In this document: piece by piece, positions 31,196 to 34,929 of the stretch | How the letters are laid out: each line of letters begins with the position of its first letter | How positions within the stretch are numbered: the stretch's first letter is position 1 | NCBI RefSeq assembly: GCF_021545845.1 | Contig: NZ_CP088923.1 | Span: forward strand, 1,922,001-1,986,000 | From: Rhodanobacter thiooxydans | Lineage (GTDB): Bacteria; Pseudomonadota; Gammaproteobacteria; Xanthomonadales; Rhodanobacteraceae | DNA length: 64,000 bases | Direction of reading: 5' to 3' | The notes under the pieces: model-generated | The model's input: only the letters and a program-made list of their open reading frames with translations | Databases searched by the model: none | Told to the model about the DNA's origin: nothing | Translations under genes and position numbers: made by a program

Positions 31196-32671
31196 ATGTG
31201 CGGAATCATCGGCATTGTCGGTACCACCGAAGTGGCATCGGCGCTCTATGACGGCCTGACGGTGCTGCAGCACCGCGGCCAGGACGCGGCCGGCATCGCC
31301 ACGGTGGATGGCGCGCGGCTGCGCCTGCACAAGGGCAACGGACTGGTGCGCGACGTGTTCGGGCAGAGCGCGATGAGCGGCCTGCGCGGGCGCATCGGCA
31401 TCGGCCACTGCCGCTACCCCACCGCCGGCTCGGAAGGCTCGGCCGAGGCCCAGCCGTTCTACGTCAACTCGCCGTACGGCATCGCGTTCGCGCACAACGG
31501 CAACCTGGTCAACACCGACGCGCTGCGCCGCGAGATGTTCCAGGACGACCGCCGCCACATCAACACCGATTCCGATTCCGAGGTGCTGCTGAACGTGCTG
31601 GCGCACGAGTTGCAGATCCAGGACCGGATGGAGCTGACCCCGGACCACATCTTCAAGGCAGTGGCCGGCGTGCACGCGCGCGCCCGCGGCGGCTACGCCT
31701 GCATCGCCCTGCTGCTGGGCTACGGCCTGATCGCGTTCCGCGATCCGAACGGCATTCGCCCGCTGGTGCTGGGTGAGCGGATCAGCGGCGAGGGCCGCGA
31801 GTACGCGGTGGCGTCGGAGTCGGTGGCGCTGGACATCCTCGGCTTCAAGCGCATCCGCGACGTGGCGCCGGGCGAGGCGGTGATCATCACCGACGCCGGC
31901 CAGCTGTACACCCGCCGCTGCGCCGAGGGCGCGCCGCACACGCCGTGCATCTTCGAATACGTGTACCTGGCCCGGCCCGACTCGATGATCGAGGACGTGT
32001 CGGTGTACAAGGCGCGCCTGCGCATGGGCGAGAAGCTGGCCGAGAAGATCCTGCGCGAACGGCCCGACCACGGCATCGACGCGGTGATCCCGATCCCCGA
32101 CACCGCGCGCACCGCCGCCAGCGCGCTGGCCGGCGCGCTCGGCGTGCCGTTCCGCGAGGGCTTCGTCAAGAACCGCTACATCGGCCGCACCTTCATCATG
32201 CCGGGGCAGGGCGAGCGGGTGAAATCGGTGCGCCGCAAGCTCAACGCGATCGACCTGGAGTTCCGCAAGAAGAACGTGCTGCTGGTGGACGACTCGATCG
32301 TGCGCGGCACCACCTCGAAACAGATCATCCAGATGGCCCGCGACGCCGGCGCGAAGAACGTCTACTTCGCCTCCGCCGCGCCGCCGGTGCGCTACCCGAA
32401 CGTGTACGGCATCGACATGCCGTCGGCTTCGGAACTGGTCGCCGCCGGGCGCACCGAGAAGGAGGTCGAGCAGGCGATCGGCGCCGACTGGTTGATCTAC
32501 CAGGACCTGAAGGACCTGATCTGGGCGGTGCAGGACGGCAACGAGGAACTGAAGCAGTTCGACGCTTCGTGCTTCTCCGGCGAGTACGTCACCGGCCTCG
32601 ACCAGAGCTACCTGGCGCAGATCGAAATGCTGCGCTCGGACGACGCCAAGGCCGCGCGGCGGGCAGGCTGA
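31196..32671 (+). CDS. purF: Amidophosphoribosyltransferase
   Basis: A 491-residue enzyme of the first committed step of purine synthesis (PRPP plus glutamine to phosphoribosylamine). Cys2 of MCGIIGIVG is the N-terminal nucleophile of the Ntn-type glutaminase domain, which runs to about residue 235. The PRTase domain has the PRPP loop [14 protein letters not shown] (about residue 360-373). Length and order are standard; regulation by PurR-like factors is not visible. A REP palindrome follows 16 nt after the stop, and an IS110 element is inserted in its right arm. Confidence 0.96.
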
Positions 32672-32687
32672 GCCCCGTACTGCACGC

Positions 32688-32784
32688 GTAGGAGCGCACC
32701 CTGTCCACAAGGGACTTCCTTCGGTCGTGCGCGATGCTCTGATGTTGGACGGAGCCAAGAGCATCGCGCACAGGGTGCGCTCCT
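32688..32784. repeat. REP palindrome (GTAGGAGCGCACC type), right tip split by IS110
   Basis: The left arm GTAGGAGCGCACCCTGT (32688 on) pairs with the right arm ACAGGGTGCGCTCCT (to 32784), and an inner GCGCGATGCTC/GAGCATCGCGC match extends it. The expected final AC of CTCCTAC is missing here but follows the CT at 34064-34067, beyond the IS110 element. Joining the two sides gives GCGCTCCTAC, the standard REP end. Confidence 0.85.
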
Positions 32785-32837
32785 TAGGTCTTGATGTCCG
32801 ACCTGTCAGGGTCGAGCATTCCCGACTGATCATCGGG

Positions 32838-32988
32838 GGAACCGGGTGATGCCGATGCGCTCCTTTGGCTTCGAGCCCGTGACGTAGATGCACACCCCGG
32901 TTCCGATTTCGCTCATCCAGAAGTTTGAACGGTACCCTCGGCCCGCCACTGGCGTGAGCCTGCACACCTAAGGATCAGCCGGATGAGC
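32838..32988 (+). ncRNA. Predicted IS110 bridge RNA (target and donor binding loops)
   Basis: Two stem-internal-loop hairpins in the left end. Target loop: outer stem GGAACCGGG (32838-32846)/CCCGGTTCC (32896-32904) and apical stem GGCT-TCG-AGCC (32867-32877). Its left strand holds TGCGCTCCT (32856-32864), identical over 9 nt to the insertion site at 32776-32784, and its right strand holds GTAG (32884-32887), complementary to the right flank CTAC. Donor loop: outer stem GCTCATCC (32911-32918)/GGATGAGC (32981-32988) and apical CGCC-ACT-GGCG (32944-32954). The right strand ACCTAAG (32966-32972) is the exact complement of the left end CTTAGGT, and the left strand ACGGTA (32929-32934) equals the right end at 34057-34062. 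The RNA probably extends somewhat on both sides. Confidence 0.75.
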
Positions 32989-33022
32989 ATGGTGATCGGA
33001 ACAAACCATGCGAGGTAAGGCG

Positions 33023-34045
33023 ATGACAAACGTTGTGGGAGTGGATGTGGCCAAGGCCACGTTTGATGTGGCCGTTGGTCTGGCCAAGCCGGGCAAATTC
33101 CAGACACGCGCCAAGGTGGCCAATCGTGAAGAAGGCTTCCAGGAGTTGATGACCTGGTTGGACAAGCACGCGCCGGAAGCGGCGGTGTGCATGGAAGCGA
33201 CGGGGATCTATCACGAGGCACTGGCCATCTTCCTGGTACAGCAAGGCAAGACGGTCTACGTGGCCAATCCGGCGCAAGTAAAGTACTTCGGCAAGAGCCA
33301 GCTGACGCGAACCAAGACCGACCGCACAGACGCCAAGCTCATTGCGCAGTTCGCCACCAGTCAGCAGGCCGGCACCCATCCGATGGCGCCGTGGATGCCG
33401 CCGACAGCGGCCCAGCGCACCTTGCGCGCGCTGGTCGAACGGCTGGACGATCTCAAGGGCATGGAGCGGATGGAAGCGAACCGACTCGACGTCGCCAATG
33501 ACGCCGTACGCGACTCGGTGGAAGCGTCGCTCAAGGAACTGCGCAAGCAGATCAAGGCGCTGGAGCAGCGCATCAACAATCACATCGACAAGGATCCCCA
33601 GCTGCGCTACGACGCGGCGTTGATGACGTCCATCCCCGGCATCGCCAAGACCACGTCGGCCTCCCTGCTCGCCGCACTGGGCGACCTGCGACGCTTCGAC
33701 GCGCCGGGCAAGCTGGTCGCCTTCGCCGGCCTCAACCCGGCACGGCGCGAGTCGGGCACGCTCAAGGGACAGGTCCGGATCTCCAAAACCGGTGCCCCCG
33801 GCTTGCGCGCCAAACTCTACTTTCCCGCCATCTGCGCCAAGAACCACAACCCCGTGGTTCGTGCCTTCTGCGAACGGTTGCTCGCACGCGGGAAGCTCCC
33901 CATCGTGACCGTGTGTGCCGCCATGCGGAAGCTCCTGCACCTAGTCTGGGGCGTCATCCATACCAACTCGCTGTTTGATCCTGACTACCCCAGACACCGC
34001 CTCGTTGCCTCTGCGCACGCATCACCTGGATGCTCGCTTGCATAA
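33023..34045 (+). CDS. IS110-family DEDD transposase/recombinase
   Basis: A 340-residue recombinase. The N-terminal RuvC-like DEDD domain shows GVDVAKATFDVAV (Asp), CMEATGIYHEAL (Glu) and KTDRTDAKLIAQFA (Asp-Asp). A coiled-coil middle follows (about 125-185), then the C-terminal Tnp domain with SIPGIAKTTSASLLA and AFAGLNPARRESGT and the conserved Ser segment after it. IS110 enzymes use a bridge RNA to pair the target with the element's circular donor. ATG 33023 follows GAGGTAAGG; an ATG five codons upstream is also in frame. The gene is intact, so the element may be active. Confidence 0.93.
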   Translation: MTNVVGVDVAKATFDVAVGLAKPGKFQTRAKVANREEGFQELMTWLDKHAPEAAVCMEATGIYHEALAIFLVQQGKTVYVANPAQVKYFGKSQLTRTKTDRTDAKLIAQFATSQQAGTHPMAPWMPPTAAQRTLRALVERLDDLKGMERMEANRLDVANDAVRDSVEASLKELRKQIKALEQRINNHIDKDPQLRYDAALMTSIPGIAKTTSASLLAALGDLRRFDAPGKLVAFAGLNPARRESGTLKGQVRISKTGAPGLRAKLYFPAICAKNHNPVVRAFCERLLARGKLPIVTVCAAMRKLLHLVWGVIHTNSLFDPDYPRHRLVASAHASPGCSLA

Positions 34046-34077
34046 CGCGGAACGAGACGGTATCTACAGGAAACGCC

Positions 34078-34929
34078 ATGACCGACCTGCATGTCGCCGC
34101 CAAGCGCTGCCTCGACGCCACCGATCCGGCCGAAAAGCTGCGTCTCACCCATGAAACCTGGCAGGCGTTCCTCGCCGGCGAATTGCGCGCTGACCCCGCG
34201 TCGCCGCCGCCAGCGCCGATCGGACCGCCCGGCCGTCCCGCGAAACCGCAGCTGGTCAACGCCCGCCAGCTGCCGCAACGTGGCCTGGGCAGCGCGGAAG
34301 GCCGCGCCGCGCTGGTGCATGCGGTGGCCCACATCGAGTTCAACGCGATCAACCTGGCCTGGGATGCGGTGTACCGCTACCGCGGCATGCCGGCGGACTA
34401 CTACCGCGACTGGGCCAGCTGCGCACACGACGAGGCACGCCACTTTACGCTGCTGTCCGACCGGCTGGCCGAGCTCGGCTATGCCTACGGCGACTTCGAT
34501 GCGCACAACGGCCTGTGGGAAATGGCCGAGAAGACCGCCGGCCACGACACCGCGCGGATGGCGCTGGTGCCGCGCGTGCTGGAGGCACGCGGGCTGGACG
34601 TCACCCCCGGCATGATCGAGCGGCTGCGCGGCCTCGGCGACGAACGCACGGTGGCGATCCTGGAAGTGATCCTGCGCGAGGAAGTGGCCCACGTCGCCGC
34701 CGGCACCCGCTGGTACCGCCACTGCTGCGAACGCGACGGCCTCTACCCGATCGAGACGTTCTTCACCCTGCTGCGCGACTACATGGGCGTGAATCTGCGT
34801 GGGCCGTTCAACCGGCCGGCGCGGCTGCAGGCGGGCTTTGTCGAAGCCGAGCTGGATCGATTGGCGGCGTTGGCCGCAGAGTTGCCTGGCGCGACCGGGA
34901 GTTTTCAGTCTTGCTCAAACCGTCCGTGA
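34078..34929 (+). CDS. DUF455 ferritin-like protein
   Basis: A 283-residue protein with a ferritin-like four-helix diiron pattern: HIEFNAINLAWDAVYRY (Glu), WASCAHDEARHFTLL (ExxRH), and ILREEVAHVAAGTRWYRH (ExxH). This is the DUF455 family, sometimes annotated as MiaE-like or rhamnan-related; the reaction is unknown, but a di-iron oxygenase or hydroxylase role is plausible. The ribosome site AGGAAACGCC starts right after the REP/IS110 right boundary, so the insertion sits immediately in front of the gene and may have removed or supplied its promoter. The C-terminal ten residues lack similarity to the family core. Confidence 0.85.
   Translation: MTDLHVAAKRCLDATDPAEKLRLTHETWQAFLAGELRADPASPPPAPIGPPGRPAKPQLVNARQLPQRGLGSAEGRAALVHAVAHIEFNAINLAWDAVYRYRGMPADYYRDWASCAHDEARHFTLLSDRLAELGYAYGDFDAHNGLWEMAEKTAGHDTARMALVPRVLEARGLDVTPGMIERLRGLGDERTVAILEVILREEVAHVAAGTRWYRHCCERDGLYPIETFFTLLRDYMGVNLRGPFNRPARLQAGFVEAELDRLAALAAELPGATGSFQSCSNRP

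Follow-up and report, generated by a model that had tools for sequence, protein, structure and literature searches.

What does the long left non-coding end of this insertion sequence do, and how are its insertion sites chosen? We believe that the left end of this IS110-group element encodes a bridge RNA. Its target loop would address a REP-like palindrome of the host and its donor loop the junction of the excised circle, with strand exchange at a CT core; we regard this reading as highly probable. It rests on the anatomy of the RNA, its conservation and the covariation of the guides with the targets and, for the right donor guide, with the element end; transcription, circle formation and the chemistry we infer. 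The window, below, means the whole stretch of 64,000 nucleotides that was analysed.

The element lies between purF (31196-32671) on one side and a DUF455 gene (ATG at 34078) on the other, and its CT core is present twice, at 32783-32784 (left) and 34064-34065 (right). The features used in the argument are the following.

32776-32784, +: left target (7 nt and the CT core), TGCGCTCCT, outer arm of a REP-like palindrome; found in 12/12 copies
32783-32789, +: right donor, that is, the core and the element left end, CTTAGGT; 7/7 with the right donor guide
32785-34064, +: whole IS110-group element, the 1,280-bp unit common to 12 copies, from a comparison of flanks
32821-32837, +: bridge RNA 5' stem-loop (CCCGA/TCGGG); 32819-32838 folds at -7 kcal/mol
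32838-32904, +: target loop; covariance model, pair covariation
32856-32864, +: left target guide TGCGCTCCT; sequence, and guide-flank covariation in relatives
32884-32887, +: right target guide, GTAG; its partner is CTAC (34064-34067)
32888-32889, +: AT after the right target guide, in the place given for the IS621 target-loop handshake guide in PMC11208158
32911-32988, +: donor loop; covariance model, pair covariation
32929-32937, +: left donor guide ACGGTACCC; against the right end ACGGTATCT it is mismatched at position 7 and core position 9
32964-32972, +: right donor guide ACACCTAAG; pairs with CTTAGGT contiguously (as ACCTAAG) or with a 2-nt bulge
32973-32974, +: GA, just past the right donor guide, at the donor-loop handshake position
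33023-34045, +: IS110 recombinase ORF; Pfam, NCBIfam and PDB matches
34038-34063, +: right end, including TTGCAT (34038-34043) and the left donor ACGGTAT (34057-34063)
34064-34067, +: right target (core and AC); TAC follows the element unit in 12/12 copies

The recombinase has the two domains of the IS110 family, a RuvC-like DEDD domain and a C-terminal Transposase_20 domain (Pfam DEDD_Tnp_IS110 and Transposase_20, 97.4 and 79 bits with cut-offs of 29 and 21.3). The NCBIfam model NF033542, described as "IS110 family RNA-guided transposase", gives 230.5 bits against a cut-off of 140. A PDB sequence search at E 1e-3 returned ISCro4 (9t56, 207 bits) and IS621 (204 bits) and no other solved relatives. 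Residues D7, E57, D99, D102 and S243 are invariant across 11 proteins; judging by the alignment offset and the residue names in PMC11208158, they would correspond to D11/E60/D102/D105/S241 of IS621. ATG 33023 is the likelier start than the in-frame ATG 33008, since GAGG precedes it. The non-coding ends then measure about 238 nt on the left (before ATG 33023) and 19 nt on the right (past the stop), and a long left end with the RNA on it (model match 32832-33002) and a short right end are the arrangement of the IS110 group.

The first-pass annotation had described two hairpins with internal loops in the left end and four guides within them, and this description is reproduced to the base. The target loop has an outer stem of 9 perfect bp (32838-32846 with 32896-32904) and an apical stem GGCT/AGCC closed by the triloop TCG; the donor loop has an outer stem of 8 perfect bp (32911-32918 with 32981-32988), an apical stem CGCC/GGCG with the triloop ACT, and three further pairs (32940-32942 with 32958-32960). 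The left target guide at 32856-32864 is identical to 32776-32784 over 9 nt, that is, 7 nt and the CT core. Two guides are complements of the DNA: GTAG (32884-32887) of CTAC (34064-34067), where the core makes up two of the four nucleotides, and ACCTAAG (32966-32972) of CTTAGGT (32783-32789). The right end reads ACGGTA at 34057-34062, as does the RNA at 32929-32934, and the left donor match is indeed imperfect, as had been remarked, the mismatches being position 7 (C in the guide, T in the element) and the second base of the core. In 6/8 relatives inspected, though not in L033 and L036, CCGACTGATCATCGG likewise precedes the target loop.

Folded in isolation, the target loop reaches z = -3.3 (1/200 shuffles as good) and the donor loop z = -1.3 (23/200); the whole left end, also with z = -1.3 (23/200), is not significant. 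Rfam 15 at the gathering score places no family on the left end, its three matches lying elsewhere in the window. Folding energy alone is insufficient here, and we consider the structure established because of its covariation in relatives.

The relatives were collected from several sources. At E 1e-40, 6/197 family genomes matched (host included, none of the others in the host genus); at E 1e-70, 7/369 class genomes and 4/398 order genomes did, again with the host. The alignment query of genome contigs gave 211 loci, 80 of which were kept for analysis. The same query of viral contigs gave 26 loci with 31-39% identity, which were used for a motif scan only and stand outside all later counts; 21 of them have none of the motifs. 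Single-protein scans of genome contigs and viral contigs found no relatives, and tblastn of plasmids returned three records, each below 60% identity, which were left out of later analysis.

Two covariance models were built, R1 trained with the window and R2 from 43 relatives without it. R1 matched 76/81 sources (77 matches; none in L013, L035, L103, L106 and L109). A weak second R1 match of 26 bits near a relative on the opposite strand (L039:997-1159, -) is perhaps a relic of another element. The hold-out model R2 recognizes the element RNA with 83.1 bits (E 9.5e-21), its sole match in 64 kb.

The proposal that the two stem-loops are conserved in relatives with compensatory changes is borne out by the plain alignment of 46 elements: there are 204 doubly changed cells against 98.4 in shuffles (0/500 as high), with the tested structure taken from the window, whose element is among the 46. 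Sliding the partner by 1 to 3 columns lowers the covariation score from 0.359 to 0.263 or less, and 26/28 pairs show change on both sides, which is reached in 7/500 shuffles. The outer stems pair in 58% and 53% of cases and the inner stems in 77%, 97% and 91%; in the target apical stem, 33/43 lack the fourth pair. The model-fitted alignment of the 77 matches, which favours the structure by construction, gives 383 compensated cells against 141.9 in shuffles, and its count of pairs with a change on both sides is not above shuffles (140/500 reach it). The family thus has two internal loops in a conserved covarying structure, as in IS621-type bridge RNAs.

In the host genome (4.20 Mb, two contigs) there are 12 copies of the element, with 100% identity over 1,280 bp, and the target can be read from their flanks. 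All 12 sit between (T/C)G(C/G)GCTCCT, or with the longer left flank G(T/C)G(C/G)GCTCCT, and TAC. The target guides pair with their own insertion site in 12/12 copies with at most one deviating base. Only L009 and L010 deviate within the nine guide positions, L009 with G for C at -7 and L010 with C for T at -9; the latter change would give a G-U pair with the guide, and both copies lie, by eye, in a variant palindrome. The REP-like motif CGCGCAC occurs within 60 nt of the left junction in 10/12 copies. Copies with the same loop and different targets, the observation that the first-pass annotation had named as counter-evidence, were not seen: the 12 identical copies have one common target.

The exact 11-mer target TGCGCTCCTAC has 65 uninterrupted occurrences in the genome versus 4 for the reversed control pattern, and the 10-mer GCGCTCCTAC has 75 versus 24; some of these sites are partner arms of occupied palindromes, for example, that at 32697 of the window. 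The 1.5-kb right flanks of the 12 copies have no 25-mer in common. Two copies (L001 and L012) have 1,140 left-flank 25-mers in common and none on the right; sharing most of the left flank, they leave 11 clearly different left flanks, and so would stand next to a larger repeat or be the trace of a rearrangement. Where other pairs of copies have left-flank 25-mers in common, there are 1 to 9 of them, a number for which the REP-like repeat itself could account.

Two further observations concern the same genome. A 62-bp left-end remnant with 97% identity (L013, C1:163169-163230, -) still adjoins the same REP-like target and stops at the first strand of the target-loop stem; R1 finds no bridge RNA match in it. 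The Y1_Tnp family, which includes REP-associated transposases, has seven matches over the cut-off, three of them with equal score and four being L161-L164; the REP-like palindromes may therefore have a mobiliser of their own, for which the Y1_Tnp proteins are candidates.

Do the guides follow the targets where the targets differ? For the left target guide, 76 loci form 42 distinct guide groups; with seven non-core positions scored, 26 groups agree with the flank at 7/7, 9 at 6/7, 4 at 5/7, 2 at 4/7 and 1 at 0/7. In the control of mismatched guide-flank pairs with the same register freedom, 5/1,698 pairs reach 7/7, and the summed score is 264 versus a maximum of 178 in 2,000 permutations. The comparison of guide and flank across relatives, which had been suggested as a check, therefore finds the target guides changing with the flanks. 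The poor fits are L034, L063, L090 and L099 (5/7), L079 and L104 (4/7) and the L045 group of five copies (0/7), a group that may lack the core T which the left-guide scoring required.

The last group (L045-L049, Acidithiobacillus ferrianus) has varied left flanks and a near-constant right flank, CTGT(C/T)GG, which is near-complementary to a longer right target guide, CCGACAG, as if the specificity had moved to the right side. Long right matches (CTGACCCC) are present also in L099, L108 and L121, and longer right target guides are reported for some orthologues in PMC11208160.

For the right target guide, 54 of 70 loci have GTAG with CTAC, so that a GTAG match alone is weak evidence. The guide is supported because relatives change guide and flank together: another pair compensated at both positions is found in 12 loci, several of which are copies of one element (ACAG/CTGT 6, GCAG/CTGC 2, TCAG/CTGA 2, AGAG/CTCT 1, TTAG/CTAA 1). 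The exceptions are one mismatch in three loci (GTAG/CTGC 2, GTAG/CTAT 1) and a core change in one (GTAT/CTAC). Two loci of one genome (L015 and L021 of G143, 56% and 55% identity) combine the right guide GCAG and the flank CTGC with TGGGTTCCT as both left guide and left flank, a clean natural retargeting.

The right donor guide was compared with the left end in 77 loci, which give 22 distinct pairs. With a 2-nt bulge and G-U allowed, 18/22 pairs agree at 7/7; the contiguous reading reaches 7/7 in two pairs only, the window and L090, both of which fit either reading. The bulged summed score is 148 versus a maximum of 144 in 2,000 permutations (141 versus 134 with Watson-Crick pairs only). In the window the guide pairs at 7/7 with the left end of the element, as in IS621-type RNAs, and a discontiguous nine-to-seven pairing is reported for the IS621 right donor (PMC11208160). 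The window guide, too, probably leaves 2 nt bulged, so that 9 nt of RNA face 7 nt of DNA. The window end CTTAGGT and the guide ACACCTAAG both differ from the other types, and do so jointly.

On paper, the dinucleotides AT and GA after the right guides can pair with positions 6-7 of the donor and target of this element. The relatives lend this no independent support: when donor-loop bases were set against target positions 6-7 in 49 distinct cases, position 7 paired in 45, a value reached in 128/2,000 permutations (mean 43.2), and position 6 in 10, which is the permutation mean. A compensated change at position 7 is seen in one locus (L062). That AT follows the right target guide in 82/83 cases is no evidence, because the anchor motif largely included AT.

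The left donor guide is the least regular part. A right end that fits ACRRTATCT is present in 73 loci. In 50 of them the guide is identical to the end at all 9 nt, in 20 core position 9 is the sole difference, in two the difference is at position 4, and the window alone differs at positions 7 and 9, with 7/9 in agreement. This agreement in relatives is partly built in, because the motifs that served to find guide and end were almost alike and the search left only positions 3, 4, 7 and 9 free to differ; position 3, the informative one, agrees with the right end in 73/73 loci (48 G, 25 A). At position 7 of the guide, the 77 model matches have T in 73, A in one, a gap in two, and C only in the window.

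It is tempting to propose that an RNA with two mismatches against its own right end is defective or weak, so that donor recognition is blocked and the copies are spent or moved in trans; donor mismatches are, according to PMC11208160, generally poorly tolerated in IS621. The same source names left donor position 7 as an exception that appears more tolerant of mismatch, and core position 9 is mismatched in 20 others of the 73 loci. Moreover, one guide is common to 12/12 copies, whose 12 right flanks all differ, and the hold-out model at E 1 matched only these 12 copies in the host genome, with no helper RNA of such type (150 scored of 839 first-look candidates). We therefore consider a defective RNA unlikely, though it is the most serious of the objections, and the simplest reading would be that the mismatched RNA is competent, since all copies carry this guide and no other such RNA was seen in the genome. 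The mismatch might go further and be a functional departure rather than noise, one that may change how often excision occurs relative to insertion and thereby favour spread through the REP-like repeats. We hold this to be quite improbable; if true, the mismatch in 12 identical copies is a natural case of donor-guide tuning.

One may also ask whether the left end is mainly an mRNA leader that controls translation of the transposase, the guide matches being by-products. There is a precedent in ISPpu9, a REP-targeting element regulated by a structured 5' leader and two small RNAs (PMC8450116); yet a leader predicts neither the covariation of guide and flank nor that of guide and end, and we find it very improbable as the main role, while the two roles could coexist. 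That the guide matches are due to chance, or to REP sequence captured by the element, is hardly credible. The left target guide is, to be sure, a REP arm common in the host genome, and the flank similarity reaches past the guide; relatives with other targets nevertheless carry correspondingly different guides at the same place of the RNA.

For a bridge RNA as preferred here, the steps are proposed after the IS621 mechanism (PMC11208160, PMC11208158). The element would be excised to a circle, and the left end would be transcribed into the bridge RNA from a promoter at the circle junction. The RNA would be bound by the recombinase, as homology with IS621 suggests. The target loop would pair with the outer end of the host palindrome, TGCGCTCC followed by TAC, where the left guide would read the bottom strand and the right guide the top strand. 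The donor loop would pair with the joined right and left ends of the circle. The acidic RuvC residues and the serine of the Tnp domain, as a RuvC-Tnp composite site, would then cleave and exchange strands at the CT core, giving an insertion without duplication beyond CT.

A possible junction promoter can be read from the sequence: TTGCAT (34038-34043) is followed after 17 nt by TATCTT, which spans the circle junction (34061-34065 and 32785). Many relatives with ACAGTAT right ends show, by eye, a TATTAT-like box in the left end with TTGAC 17 nt ahead of it; in many of the ACGGTAT group, which includes the window, TTGC stands 17 nt ahead of a TATCTT that crosses the core. The relatives may thus have two junction-promoter geometries.

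Among the closest described systems is IS621, an IS110-group element of E. coli with a homologous recombinase. It shares the left-end bridge RNA with the order 5' stem-loop, target loop, donor loop and the CT core (PMC11208160, PMC11208158), insertion into REPs (PMC1525189) and the bulged right-donor pairing (PMC11208160). Unlike IS621, the window element has the REP-like arm TGCGCTCCT/AC as its target, and its left donor guide is mismatched at positions 7 and 9; its left end is CTTAGGT against CTTGTAT, CTTATAT, CTTATGT or CTTGTGT in relatives. ISCro4, the best solved sequence match, is likened through protein comparison, and ISPpu9 and ISPpu10 by description. With IS621 and ISPa11, the two latter are the IS110-family elements for which PMC1525189 reports REP targeting, those other than IS621 being tied to Pseudomonas REPs.

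ISPa11 is of the IS1111 type, with RNAs downstream of the transposase gene (PMC11187229), whereas the window RNA is upstream. A DEDD transposase and a guide RNA in a non-coding end are common to this element and the IS1111/seekRNA systems (PMC11187229, PMC11208160). Membership of the IS1111 group, which has a long right end with the RNA, was considered and rejected: the right end is 19 nt, and the sole RNA model match in the window is upstream. A bridge RNA was predicted in 85.7% of IS110-group elements by Durrant et al. (PMC11208160). We found no description of the window element in the literature searched, which excluded ISfinder and most subscription papers.

For genome editing, the locus offers another natural pair of recombinase and RNA and opens no new mechanism. 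Its interest is that of a well-supported natural bridge RNA whose target is readable directly from 12 insertions, with a natural left-donor mismatch affecting, among other bases, the position described as tolerant in IS621. The bridge RNA is tied to the REP-like repeats of its host, where many uninterrupted sites remain.
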